24,219 bases of DNA, from the IMG/VR virus record IMGVR_UViG_3300037193_002569, positions 1 through 24,219 of that record; one strand, given 5' to 3'. Numbering within the stretch: the stretch's first letter is position 1; each line of letters opens with the position of its first letter. The DNA is from a virus. The translations under genes and the position numbers were made by a program. The notes below the pieces were generated by a model, which did no database searches, was not told the DNA's origin, and saw only the letters and a list, made by a program, of their open reading frames with translations. Of this stretch, positions 1,798 to 5,245 are shown piece by piece.

Positions 1798-3066
1798 TCA
1801 GGACTCGATCTGCTGCGGCATCAGCAGATCCCCGAGCCGCGCCATGGCCTCGACCGTCTCGGCGTCCGAGACGTGCGTGTAGCCCATCGTCACCGTGGCA
1901 TCCGAGTGGCCGAGGATCTGCTGGCGCGTCTTCTCCGGCACGCCGAGCTTGTGCAGCAGCGTCGCCGTCGTGTGCCTCGCGGTGTACGGCTCCACCTGCT
2001 CCAGGCCGGCGATGTCCAGCCATCGGTGCCACGCGGCGCCGTCGTCCTTCGGGTCGATCGGCCGGCGCGCCTCGTCCCCGCGGTGCAGCACCAGACCGTG
2101 CATGCCGAGCGTTGCCTGCTCGAGGTGGCGGCGCATCACGGCGGCGAGCGGCGGGGCCATCGGCACCTCGCGCCAGCCGGCGCGCGACTTCGGGCGCGTG
2201 AGCCACAGACCCCCGTCCACCCGGACCGCCTCCTGGTGCGGCGGCACGTCGACCCAGCGCTTCAGGCACGAGCCGCCCCGGCTACGCCCGCACGCCCACG
2301 CCTCGCCCTTGGCGGGCGGCCGGCCGCCGGGCATGCACCCGTGCTCCCAACGCAGGCGCTGCAACTGCCAGGACACGGTGATCATCGAGCGGTCCAGGTC
2401 GACCTGCTCGCGCGTGAGCCCCAGCCTCTCCCCCGGTCGCAGCCCGGCCATCAGCGCGAGCGACCAGTGCACGGCGGCCATCGGGTCCTGCGCGGCCGCC
2501 ACCAGGAGCGTGGTGGCATCGTCGGCAGACAGCGCCCCCCGCTTGCTCACGGCCTTCCGGGGCGCGTCGAGCTGGGTTGCGACGTTCTGCACCACGCGCC
2601 CCTGTCTGGCCGCGTCGGTGAGGCACTTGGCCAGGATGCGGTGGGTCGTCAGCGCCGTCGTCGAGGACAGGCCGCGCTCCTTGGTGACGTAGTCGTGCAC
2701 CCGCCGCACATGGTCGGCCGTGAGCCGCTCCAGCCGGATGCGCCCGATGGTCGGCACCACGTAGCTGAGCATCTTGCGCTCGTAGTCCACGTACGTGCCG
2801 GGCTTGAGGTTCTTCTTCTTGTCGGCGAGCCACGTCGTCGTCCACTGCGCCATCGTCGGTGACGACGTCGGCAGGTTGCCCGCCTTGGCCAGCTCGCGCT
2901 TGGCGGTGCGGAGCTTCGCCTTGACGCCCTCCTCGGTCTTGGACGAGAGGTACTTGCGCTTCCCGTTGGGCAGGCCGAGCTCGGCCATCCACAGGCCGTC
3001 GCTGCCGCGCTGGTACACGCTCCCCTCGCCCTTCTCGCGGCGGGGTCTGGGCTTCTTCGTGGCCAT
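1798..3066 (-). CDS. int: Tyrosine-family phage integrase (422 aa)
   Basis: Site-specific recombinase that would join phage attP to a host tRNA gene. The N-terminal arm-binding part (about 10-60, with GEGSVYQRGSDGLW and KRKYLSSKTEEGVKAKL) is followed by a SAM-like core-binding domain (about 70-155) and the catalytic domain. Visible catalytic residues are Arg210 (AGLRPGE), Lys293 in the beta-hairpin, Arg364 (ARHTTATLL), His387 (LGHSDA) and nucleophile Tyr396 (MGYTH). The usual first His of the HxxR box is Tyr361 here. A Cys-containing insert at about 244-268 (C244, C259, C267) resembles inserts seen in other actinophage integrases. The ATG at 3066 follows GGAG with proper spacing. The gene faces away from attP, whose arm repeats begin in its leader, so autoregulation is plausible. 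Confidence 0.95.
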   Translation of the reverse strand: MATKKPRPRREKGEGSVYQRGSDGLWMAELGLPNGKRKYLSSKTEEGVKAKLRTAKRELAKAGNLPTSSPTMAQWTTTWLADKKKNLKPGTYVDYERKMLSYVVPTIGRIRLERLTADHVRRVHDYVTKERGLSSTTALTTHRILAKCLTDAARQGRVVQNVATQLDAPRKAVSKRGALSADDATTLLVAAAQDPMAAVHWSLALMAGLRPGERLGLTREQVDLDRSMITVSWQLQRLRWEHGCMPGGRPPAKGEAWACGRSRGGSCLKRWVDVPPHQEAVRVDGGLWLTRPKSRAGWREVPMAPPLAAVMRRHLEQATLGMHGLVLHRGDEARRPIDPKDDGAAWHRWLDIAGLEQVEPYTARHTTATLLHKLGVPEKTRQQILGHSDATVTMGYTHVSDAETVEAMARLGDLLMPQQIES

Positions 3067-3070
3067 CGGG

Positions 3071-3290
3071 ACTCCAGTCTTCTACTTCAGGAAACTACTT
3101 CAGTCTGAACCAGTCCCGACCAGTCTGGACCCTGTAACTGTAGATGGCTAGATTCTGCCGATCCCGAGGCCGATCCCTGGTCACCAGGGTACCAATCGAA
3201 AGACTCATAATCTCTCGGTCGCGGGTTCAAGTCCTGCACGGGGCACCGATTCTCGGAGGTCACTTCAGTTGCACGTTCAGTTAAAGTCTC
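3071..3290. other. attP: Phage attachment site attP with tRNA-Met 3' half and arm-type repeats
   Basis: Positions 3202-3247 match the 3' half of an elongator tRNA-Met gene on the plus strand: an anticodon loop with CAT (GACTCATAATC, 3202-3212), a T-arm GCGGG-TTCAAGT-CCTGC, then ACGGGGC, A and CC. No matching 5' half (no D-arm or 5' acceptor) precedes it, so this is the integration core, not a gene. Flanking repeats look like integrase arm sites: CTACTTCAG at 3082-3090 and 3095-3103 on one side, ACTTCAG at 3262-3268 on the other, and TTCAGTT at 3264-3270 and 3276-3282. CCAGTC repeats lie at 3110-3115 and 3120-3125. A palindrome, CCCTGGT-C-ACCAGGG, lies at 3175-3189. Recombination would restore the host tRNA. 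Confidence 0.8.
3175..3189. repeat. Palindrome beside the attP core
   Basis: CCCTGGT and ACCAGGG form perfect 7-bp arms around one C, 12 bases before the tRNA-derived core. It could be a protein site of the recombination complex or an operator; no function is shown. Confidence 0.5.
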
Positions 3291-3322: not shown

Positions 3323-3348
3323 AGGGGTGATGTGGAAGGATGGCCGCC

Positions 3349-3669
3349 ATGACCGCGGACCGGGCCTCGACACCGACGTACGCCCCCATGCCCACCCCCG
3401 GCGCGACGATCCGCGAGTGCGTGTTCTGCCACTTCATGGTCACCCTGCGCCAGGTCCGCGGCGGCTGGTACCTCTGGACGGCCGACCGCGACCCGCTCGA
3501 CGGGCGCCGGCACTGCGACGGCGGCGTGCCCGCGTACGGGGACACGGCCGCGCTGCTCACGATCCACATCCCCGTGCCGAACCCGACCGGCGCCCCGTTC
3601 GCAGCCCGATACGACCCCGACGGCGTCGGGCACCACCCGCAGACGCACAGCGGGCGGCGGGCGGGCTGA
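3349..3669 (+). CDS. Zinc-ribbon-like small protein, function unknown (106 aa)
   Basis: A 106-residue protein on the strand opposite to the late operon. The first part is Pro/Thr-rich; then comes CVFC (Cys24, Cys27), GGWYLWTADR and an HC pair (His55, Cys56), a pattern like one half of a zinc ribbon. I chose the ATG at 3349 because GGAAGG (3334-3339) lies about nine bases before it; the ATG at 3340 is directly against this site and less likely. The gene sits between attP and the bidirectional terminator at 3686-3717, and after integration it would lie at the edge of the prophage beside the restored tRNA. This is where lysogenic-conversion genes are often found. Its function is unknown. Confidence 0.65.
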   Translation: MTADRASTPTYAPMPTPGATIRECVFCHFMVTLRQVRGGWYLWTADRDPLDGRRHCDGGVPAYGDTAALLTIHIPVPNPTGAPFAARYDPDGVGHHPQTHSGRRAG

Positions 3670-3685: not shown

Positions 3686-3717
3686 GCGCCCCCACCGTCC
3701 GAAGACGATGGGGGCGC
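3686..3717 (-). terminator. Strong intrinsic terminator with UUCG loop, ends the late operon
   Basis: On the minus strand, GCGCCCCCA pairs perfectly with TGGGGGCGC (9 bp); after one mismatch the stem continues CGTC/GACG, closed by the very stable UUCG tetraloop, and TTTCGTG follows. On the plus strand the same hairpin serves the gene ending at 3669. It lies between convergent units and probably stops both. Confidence 0.85.
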
Positions 3718-3782
3718 AGTGCCGGAGCCTGAAAGCCTTTGAGGCGCTGCTCTCCGGTGCTTCCCATTGGTGGCGCGAGGTA

Positions 3783-3863
3783 ACGCGGGGCCCGGTATCG
3801 AACCGGGGTCCATGCGAGGCTCTAGGCCGGCTGCTCGCCGCTCTGCCCCTGAGCTACCCCGCC
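3783..3863 (-). tRNA. tRNA-like gene with expanded anticodon arm
   Basis: Read on the minus strand the order of parts is that of a tRNA: acceptor GGCGGGG (3863-3857), TA, D-arm GCTC-AGGGGCA-GAGC, anticodon stem GCGAG (3838-3834) with CTCGC (3818-3814), a short variable region, T-arm CCCGG-TTCGATA-CCGGG, and 3' acceptor CCCCGCG. Six of seven acceptor pairs form; the first pair is G-G. CCA is not encoded. The anticodon stem is perfect but its loop has 15 instead of 7 bases (3833-3819), with CTA at 3825-3823 and a possible inner GGC/GCC stem. No standard anticodon loop can be drawn, so the decoded amino acid is unknown. It follows the holin gene by 38 bases and precedes the late terminator. It could be a tRNA, a degraded tRNA or a tRNA mimic. 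Confidence 0.6.
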
Positions 3864-3901
3864 CCTCACGCCGAGGCCAGGATACCGCGAGCCACCGACA
3901 G

Positions 3902-4321
3902 TCAGTCGTTGGTCAGGGTCCGCACCGGGGCGAGCTCCAGCACGCGGTTGGGCACGATGCCCACCGACAACGCGCCGAGCGCAGCGATCAGCACCATGAG
4001 CCAGGACGAGGCTGGCAGGGTGCCGTTGACGATCAGCGGGATCGCGGCCTGGAGCGCGGTGCCGAAGACGGCGACGATCGCCTTCGCGTACCGACCCACA
4101 CCCGAGGGCAGGTTCGGCACGAGGTAGACCGCCATCGCGTTCACGAGTGCCAGGCCGATGCCGAGCCGCTCGTCGAGCACCACGACGCCGTCGGTCAGCG
4201 CCGCGGCGAGAACGGTGAGGACAGCCGTCAGGATCGCGACGATCGCCTTCGCGTACATGCTGGGCAGCTCGACGGGGTCGAAGGTCAGGATCTCGGAGTT
4301 GTCGGGCTCAAGGTGGCTCAT
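3902..4321 (-). CDS. Phage holin with duplicated domain (139 aa)
   Basis: Small membrane protein that would form lesions in the cell membrane so that the endolysin can reach the wall. The chain has two copies of one unit: YAKAIVA opens both (residues 23 and 78) and a VPN motif closes both (68 and 123), a period of exactly 55 residues. Each unit has two hydrophobic stretches, so four helices are expected. The short acidic N-terminus (MSHLEPDNSE) precedes the first helix and the tail is soluble. Such tandem-unit holins are known in actinophages. The gene follows the amidase by a few bases with AAGGAG before its ATG. At DNA level a 21-bp identical stretch marks both copies (4071-4091 and 4236-4256), pointing to recent duplication or strong constraint. 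Confidence 0.85.
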   Translation of the reverse strand: MSHLEPDNSEILTFDPVELPSMYAKAIVAILTAVLTVLAAALTDGVVVLDERLGIGLALVNAMAVYLVPNLPSGVGRYAKAIVAVFGTALQAAIPLIVNGTLPASSWLMVLIAALGALSVGIVPNRVLELAPVRTLTND

Positions 4322-4324
4322 GGG

Positions 4325-5245
4325 TCACTTCTCCTTCGGGGTCAGGACGTACTCGGTGCCCTCGGTCAGCGCCTCGACGGCCTTGCTGACCTCGGCCACG
4401 ACGCCCTTGGTGAGCGCCACCTTGTCCACGCCGGTCACGTCGGCCAGCGCCTTCGTGACGCCGCGCTGCACGGCGGCCGCGAGCTGCCCGGTCACGGCGA
4501 GCCGGGTCTCCTTGATCGCCGTGCGGAGCGTGATCTTCTCGCCGCCGATCTCCGCGGTCTTGTCGATCTTCGGGGCGGTGCCGGCGTGCACCTCGTCGAG
4601 CAGGGACTTGAGGTGGCCGACGAGCGCGCGCGTCTCGCTGAGCTGTCGGGCCTGGGTGGCGTCCATGTCGGGGACCTCCTGAGTCGGGGTGGTGTGGCTG
4701 CTCGCGACCGCGGCGCGGAACGCGTCCATGTTGAAGCTGGGGTCGATCTTGCGGCCGTTCGGCTTCCCGCCGGGGACCGCCGAGGCGATCTCCTTGTGGC
4801 CGAGCACGCGGCCGTTCGGGATGCCGAACGCCTTCGCCAGCGCGGCGACGCCGCGGGCGTAGGAGTCCATCTGGACCTTGGGCCAGTCGCGCGAGTCGCC
4901 CGTACCCTCGGCCTCGGCCTCCACACCCAGGGCGTTCCAGTTGTTCTGCCACGTGTACTGGGTGGCGCCGGCGTGCCAGGAGATCCCGGCGGCGATGACG
5001 TACCAGGTGCCGTCGCGGCCGAGGCCGAGCTGCGCGAGCGGGCCGGCCAGGTCGGAGCGGCCATCGCGGACGATGCCCAGGCTCGGGTAGTTGCCGCGCG
5101 CGTCGGCGTTCGTCGCGGTGTGGTGGCAGATGATCGCGCTCACGGACGACAGGGCGCCGTGGCCGCGCTCCTTCCATCCGGGGATCTCGATGACCTTGCA
5201 TCCCGCCTTGCGCAGGATGTCGGCCATGTCGGTGGTTCTGGCCAT
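4325..5245 (-). CDS. Endolysin, N-acetylmuramoyl-L-alanine amidase (306 aa)
   Basis: Cleaves the bond between muramic acid and the peptide stem of the host wall. The amidase_2 (PGRP-like, T7 lysozyme-like) domain spans about residues 15-180. Visible zinc ligands are His41 in CHHTA, His150 in LGHKEI and Asp168 in KIDPSF; SWHAG at 89-93 and the GVEAEAEG stretch are also typical. From about 193 to 306 lies a separate region (DATQARQLSETRALVGHL and onwards) that is rich in Ala, Val and charged residues and resembles a coiled or wall-binding tail; I cannot name its family. There is no signal peptide, so export depends on the holin just downstream. The ATG at 5245 follows AAGGG with correct spacing, one base after the stop of the collagen-like gene. 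Confidence 0.93.
   Translation of the reverse strand: MARTTDMADILRKAGCKVIEIPGWKERGHGALSSVSAIICHHTATNADARGNYPSLGIVRDGRSDLAGPLAQLGLGRDGTWYVIAAGISWHAGATQYTWQNNWNALGVEAEAEGTGDSRDWPKVQMDSYARGVAALAKAFGIPNGRVLGHKEIASAVPGGKPNGRKIDPSFNMDAFRAAVASSHTTPTQEVPDMDATQARQLSETRALVGHLKSLLDEVHAGTAPKIDKTAEIGGEKITLRTAIKETRLAVTGQLAAAVQRGVTKALADVTGVDKVALTKGVVAEVSKAVEALTEGTEYVLTPKEK

Follow-up and report, generated by a model that had tools for sequence, protein, structure and literature searches.

A short RNA element with the body of a tRNA was found directly after the lysis genes of the viral sequence analysed here (the window, 24,219 nucleotides at full length); its body is nearly unchanged among its relatives while its anticodon arm drifts, and it is therefore probably a tRNA look-alike that is not used for protein synthesis. 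The body is conserved, the stems change in pairs, the anticodon arm drifts freely and the element is inherited as a module. As an explanation of the whole, to which we give a probability of about 0.45, we propose a non-decoding cassette RNA derived from a tRNA, with its own transcription and with processing and charging blocked, and whose role would be that of a decoy, or of a scaffold, for a protein that binds the elbow. Phage tRNAs are usually explained by codon supply, by the replacement of cut tRNAs or by the repair of the integration site. A non-decoding RNA that keeps its tRNA body in phages with different lysis and integration genes would point to a role for the tRNA shape itself, and the element, being small and easily deleted, offers a handle for testing such a role. 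The phage carrying it is a phage of actinobacteria. The features of the window used in this study are listed below.

3785 to 3862, minus strand: core of the tRNA-like RNA, with a 6-bp acceptor, D-arm, anticodon arm and T-arm (RF00005 match, five-member alignment A6 and pair counts).
3819 to 3833, minus strand: 15-base loop of the anticodon arm, CAGCCGGCCTAGAGC, as read from the sequence; the arm is not conserved.
3864 to 3872, minus strand: 5' strand of the outer helix, GGCGTGAGG, a 9-bp run with the predicted RNA start at 3872.
3772 to 3780, minus strand: 3' strand of the outer helix, CCTCGCGCC, with GTTA (3784-3781) between it and the acceptor.
3879 to 3884, minus strand: -10-like hexamer TATCCT, 6 bases before the outer helix, a putative promoter element.
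3686 to 3717, minus strand: GC-rich hairpin and probable terminator, GCGCCCCCATCGTCTTCGGACGGTGGGGGCGC-TTT, with too few T (three) for formal terminator criteria.
3902 to 4321, minus strand: small holin-like gene of 139 aa upstream of the RNA (PHROG 17055, E 4.7e-10, function unknown).
4325 to 5245, minus strand: endolysin, N-acetylmuramoyl-L-alanine amidase (PF01510, E 7.7e-18; PHROG 880, endolysin).
1798 to 3066, minus strand: tyrosine integrase (PF00589, E 4.7e-17; PHROG 1, E 3.6e-60).
3202 to 3248, plus strand: probable attP core, which corresponds to the 3' half of a tRNA-Met(CAT) gene and is separate from the tRNA-like RNA.

A preliminary description had placed a tRNA-like gene at 3783-3863 on the minus strand, and the Rfam tRNA model RF00005 matched at exactly these coordinates when a 221-base stretch was scanned (34.4 bits, E 6.8e-6; Rfam cut-off 29 bits). 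The element was missed when the whole window was scanned with RF00005 at E<=1 and was not called by standard ARAGORN on the window; with introns allowed, ARAGORN called a tRNA whose anticodon loop contains an 8-base insert. The D-stem (GCTC/GAGC), the anticodon stem (GCGAG/CTCGC) enclosing a 15-base loop and the T-stem (CCCGG/CCGGG, with the T-loop TTCGATA) are as had been described, and the acceptor (GCGGGG/CCCCGC) has 6 pairs, not 7, because of a G1-G72 mismatch. The flanks of the element also pair, 3872-3864 with 3780-3772, and the resulting 9-bp outer helix makes the structure larger than was reported before. A run of this length was matched in 14 of 2000 shuffles, and its strands have pair probabilities of 0.94-1.0 in nearest-neighbour folding.

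Homologues of the element were identified in two metagenomic phages (L002 and L064) and two Actinomadura prophages (L007/L068 and L065/L062), so that the family so far comprises five distinct sequences in three lineages; the homologues are flanked by lysis genes on one side and by a terminator-like hairpin on the other. L002 is a phage with a 42% identical endolysin segment and carries its tRNA-like element directly after the lysis genes; a pattern derived from the window and L002 retrieved a single chromosomal copy, from Actinomadura sp. WMMA1423, where it follows a short gene of a prophage-like region. A covariance model (R1) built from the window, L002 and this first Actinomadura copy scored its founders at about 91 bits and the tRNAs of a phage tRNA cluster at no more than 38.5 bits, and it recovered the second Actinomadura copy at 84.6 bits. 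Exact-pattern scans of viral contigs gave, among the matches listed, L064 (90 bits) together with L068 and L065, the IMG/VR versions of the Actinomadura prophages. Among about 1,440 actinobacterial genomes in four partly overlapping draws, the RNA was found in one Actinomadura genome only, that of a strain with two prophage copies, the other checked matches being tRNA-Thr, other called tRNAs or members of a second tRNA-like family, and a blastn search of annotated phages and plasmids with the element gave no relative. RF00005 scored L002 at 36.9 bits and L064 at 37.1 bits and gave no match to the Actinomadura copies at E<=1. One of the Actinomadura prophage regions also contains, about 7.6 kb away from the RNA, a tRNA-Ile(GAT)-like sequence called by ARAGORN (L092:3469-3541, minus strand).

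The carriers are mosaics. L064 has the holin of the window, placed before the RNA (115 of 127 aa identical), together with a different integrase; L002 has the integrase of the window (71%) together with another holin, which is also that of L076; and L076, with the closest integrase of all (83%), is without the RNA. Since holin and integrase differ among carriers, the RNA is not tied to either neighbour. A scan for close relatives with the integrase alone gave no match, and a two-sequence integrase alignment used as query retrieved three phages.

The second tRNA-like family met in these searches belongs to a system consisting of an undescribed all-helical protein of about 410-470 residues with an adjoining tRNA-like gene or a tandem pair of such genes; their anticodon loops are about 6-9 bases long, in most cases start with CTC(T) and vary in the remainder. 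It is carried by several phages, large ones among them, and by Actinomadura-related chromosomes. Loci located by tblastn include L041:58-1461 with the RNA at 1501-1571, L067:4275-4424, L066:3176-3321, L069:470-625, L070:7225-7295, L071:8478-8639, L072:4500-4569, L073:5377-5530 and L096:1377-1446, and also loci in the ranges L010-L013, L039-L050, L055 and L058-L060, the gene not being present at every locus of these ranges. The protein had no convincing match in Pfam or PHROG, and its AlphaFold model (mean pLDDT 74.6, pTM 0.71) had no match in the PDB below E 0.6. It was absent from the records of all carriers of the RNA, in a search that had no positive control there and in which the window record is a fragment, and is therefore probably not a partner of the RNA; the two systems are apparently separate.

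One argument for selection on the element is a comparison of rates. Between the window and L064, 47 of the 53 positions of the tRNA body are identical (89%), compared with 61% of the four-fold sites of the holin gene and 9 of 18 positions (50%) of the anticodon arm; the body is more conserved than the four-fold sites (binomial p 1e-5, Fisher p 0.001) and the anticodon arm does not differ from them (p 0.42). A further comparison of the anticodon arm of the window with relatives gave 8 of 16 identical positions. Against the Actinomadura copy, the body is identical at 48 of 53 positions, and the 150 bases on each side show roughly the identity expected by chance. The tRNA-specific single-stranded positions T8, A14, G18, T54, T55 and A58 are kept in all five members.

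Alignment with related phages had been suggested as a way to look for compensatory changes, and such changes were found in the acceptor, in the anticodon stem and at the contact of the D-loop with the T-loop. In the five-member alignment 96% of the cells are paired, against at most 43% when the partners are slid, and four helix pairs have changed on both sides, two in the acceptor and two in the anticodon stem. The tertiary elbow pair 19-56 is G-C in three members and U-G in L002 and L064, which as one event is only suggestive, and a single change in an ancestor could account for part of the covariation. Pair counts from five sequences cannot carry the case alone, and for the sequences in hand the rate comparison is stronger.

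The predicted folding adds a further aspect. In nearest-neighbour folding of the window member, the pairs of the outer helix, acceptor and T-arm are predicted with probabilities of 0.70-1.0, only a single one not exceeding 0.9, and the D and anticodon stems fall below 0.01, being outcompeted by a long hairpin that uses the 15-base loop; in the minimum-energy fold the D-stem pairs with GAGC of this loop. The cloverleaf lies 9.2 kcal/mol above that fold; both contain a stable outer helix, acceptor and T-arm. As an equally large energy gap was seen in 7 of 94 called tRNAs, folding neither proves nor excludes the cloverleaf of the window. By the same method the cores of the Actinomadura copies fold as a cloverleaf and those of L002 and L064 come within 2.3 kcal/mol of one. 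Within a selected family, the window copy may be one that is drifting. The outer helix has an 8-bp counterpart in L002 and L064 and is weak in the Actinomadura copies, in which about 500 of 2000 shuffles were equally long.

Two features of a functional tRNA are absent. There is no 7-base anticodon loop with U33 and an anticodon, the loop having 15 bases in the window and 4 bases in L007 and L065, with no conserved triplet; and there is no 7-bp acceptor with a free 3' end for CCA, position 1:72 being mismatched in all members and the 3' side, in the window as in L002 and L064, running into the outer helix. With no conserved anticodon, a mismatch at 1:72 throughout and a buried 3' end in three members, we infer a non-decoding RNA, and quite probably one under selection. 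The origin of the element most likely lies in a host tRNA gene for threonine: in the phylum draw, every chromosomal match that passed the strict cut-off was a tRNA-Thr, and tRNA-Thr(TGT) and L007 have the same acceptor CCGGTG/CACCGG, from which sequence resemblance descent from a tRNA-Thr gene may be inferred.

The setting suggested earlier holds in so far as the RNA follows a holin-like gene and precedes a GC-rich hairpin, after which only three T follow; a promoter and terminator scan of the window gave no sigma-70 pair and no terminator satisfying its criteria. The word GTATCCTGG occurs once in the window against 0.07 expected, and the same word stands at the same place in L007 and L065; in the Actinomadura copies TATCCT precedes GCCG. 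The -10-like site of L002 and L064 is about 40 bases farther upstream and belongs to a motif, GTCAGACCCTC-N4-TANACT, that is common to L002, L064 and L076 and was not found in the window even with three mismatches allowed. The presence of the -10-like TATCCT ahead of the RNA, both in the window and in the Actinomadura prophages, suggests that the RNA may be its own transcription unit, where the earlier description would have it made from the late transcript.

Between its lysis genes and the next genes, L076 has three successive small stretches resembling transcription units (3823-4170), each with TANNNT and a GC-rich hairpin, and in two of the three the motif found upstream of the RNA in L002 and L064 is present. 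Against shuffles, folding was better for the first two (z -3.2 and -3.7) and not for the third (z +0.3 and +0.75), which contains T-arm-like pieces but is for this reason not counted as a member of the family. Small RNA genes may have a hotspot in this gap after the lysis genes. On the other side of the RNA in the window, a convergent small gene with a CVFC motif (3340-3669, plus strand) has a similar protein at the corresponding place in L002.

On the reading that we prefer, the RNA would travel between the lysis genes and the next genes as a cassette of its own, an RNA "moron". Transcription would run from the -10 element at 3884-3879, start near 3872 and end at the hairpin at 3717-3686. The outer helix and the 1:72 mismatch might in addition prevent trimming and charging, and a tRNA elbow with the acceptor/T helix would then be presented without an anticodon or a free CCA end. 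The RNA's binding partner would be an elbow-recognising protein of the host or of a rival phage, for which it would act as decoy or scaffold, a role that we put forward only tentatively. Among the enzymes that read the elbow or the acceptor/T helix are EF-Tu, RNase P, the CCA-adding enzyme and several enzymes of tRNA modification; the mimic may bind one of them, or a defence protein, and yet not serve it as a substrate. For such an elbow mimic the anticodon arm would be free to vanish, and the relatives fit the earlier suggestion of a tRNA mimic or an RNA for another use. A decoy for anticodon nucleases, which had been offered as an example, does not fit: the anticodon arm is the sole part without conservation, and since selection ignores it, this is the least likely kind of decoy. 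With low confidence, a tRNA-shaped decoy is our first guess, an RNase P signal the second and main rival, and neutral decay the third.

The RNase P signal would be a tRNA-shaped processing site, at which RNase P (and RNase Z) cuts the cloverleaf and thereby sets or protects the 3' end of the lysis mRNA, with a conserved 1x3-4 internal loop at the acceptor end substituting for the single-stranded leader and trailer; mascRNA has such a role for MALAT1. The element stands directly after lysis genes in all cases, and what is conserved, the acceptor, T-arm and elbow, is what RNase P reads. The element is preceded by a -10-like site of its own, however, the outer helix of the window, L002 and L064 buries the cleavage site, and the upstream genes differ among carriers, for which reasons we regard this reading as unlikely.

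Decay of a phage tRNA gene that has lost its anticodon and is drifting is a poor candidate as well. It would account for the neutral rate of the anticodon arm, for the misfolding of the window member in silico and for the altered T-loops of L002 and L064, but not for a body conserved so far above the four-fold sites, for stems that covary or for carriers in three lineages. No relative with an intact anticodon loop was found; the loops have 4 bases (L007/L065) or about 8-10 bases on different stems and none the normal 7, which does not support the idea of a tRNA with a simple insertion. The view expressed at the outset that the whole element is not in random decay agrees with these results.

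That a DNA-level element, such as a protein-binding or packaging site, resembles a tRNA by chance is very improbable: inverted repeats mark DNA sites too and the position between gene modules is conserved, but the tRNA-specific single-stranded positions are kept in all five members, the elbow pair covaries, and the -10-like site and hairpin are correctly oriented.

Still less can be said for a remnant of an attachment site, or for a complementing tRNA of tRNA-dependent lysogeny, although the phage is temperate with a tyrosine integrase and the first-listed tblastn match lies in Mycobacterium phage Boilgate, the comparison phage of PMC10865867. The element was considered as attP and rejected, the probable attP at 3202-3248 matching tRNA-Met. 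This core lies about 500 bases from the RNA and has 94% identity with a chromosomal tRNA-Met over 47 bases, enough to rebuild that gene; judged from the sequence, integration at the shared core can restore the host tRNA-Met, so that the tRNA-dependent lysogeny of PMC10865867 would not apply. The RNA is Thr-like and without an anticodon, and L064 carries it with a different integrase. The attP of L076 has the same kind of core, a tRNA-Met 3' half.

A decoding tRNA, either an amber suppressor or one with a removable insert as in the ARAGORN call, is hardly credible: the CTA to which amber reading had been attributed is present in the loop, but no U33 precedes it and it is not conserved in relatives, some of which have a 4-base loop, and the 1:72 mismatch of all members and the 3' end buried in the window and two relatives speak against decoding too.

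The non-decoding RNA proposed here was finally compared with known systems. Phage tRNAs that resist tRNA-cutting defences are likewise kept by phages for reasons beyond codon supply; they are decoding tRNAs with changed anticodon loops that replace the cut host tRNAs (PMC10264068; PMC11555353), whereas the present RNA cannot decode. The tRNAs of tRNA-dependent lysogeny in actinobacteriophages resemble it in that a temperate actinophage carries a tRNA-like gene close to its integrase and attP; they have the isotype of the attB tRNA, a short attP core (about 10 bp) and a host tRNA that is not rebuilt (PMC10865867). Here, in contrast, attB is tRNA-Met and the RNA is Thr-like without an anticodon, so that the isotypes differ, and the 47-base core (94%) lets attP rebuild the host tRNA. 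The element therefore lacks two defining features of a tRNA and the tested features of the tRNAs of tRNA-dependent lysogeny.

With actinobacterial tRNA-Thr (RF00005) it has in common the cloverleaf, the signature bases of the D- and T-loops and the acceptor CCGGTG/CACCGG, which is kept in the Actinomadura copies; it differs from a tRNA in having no anticodon and no CCA end, a 6-bp acceptor with a 1:72 mismatch, an outer helix and a drifting anticodon arm. The mascRNA and menRNA of MALAT1 and NEAT1, which are eukaryotic, cut by RNase P and CCA-tailed, are also non-decoding cloverleaf RNAs beside a long transcript, and we know of no comparable outer helix in them. In the open-licence papers searched, no description of a tRNA mimic of the present kind was found. 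It is conceivable, if doubtful, that the family represents a new RNA class, an uncleavable and unchargeable mimic of the tRNA elbow that is a moron of temperate actinophages and occupies a tRNA-recognising host enzyme or defence protein. Ro60 (TROVE, PF05731), a search prompted by the idea of a Y RNA, gave no match in the record of L002, the one relative searched. Bacterial Y RNAs of the YrlA type, the partners of Ro60/Rsr, are tRNA mimics of bacteria and phages, and the present RNA resembles them as a non-coding tRNA mimic occurring in both; it differs from YrlA in having its ends on the acceptor side and all four arms present.
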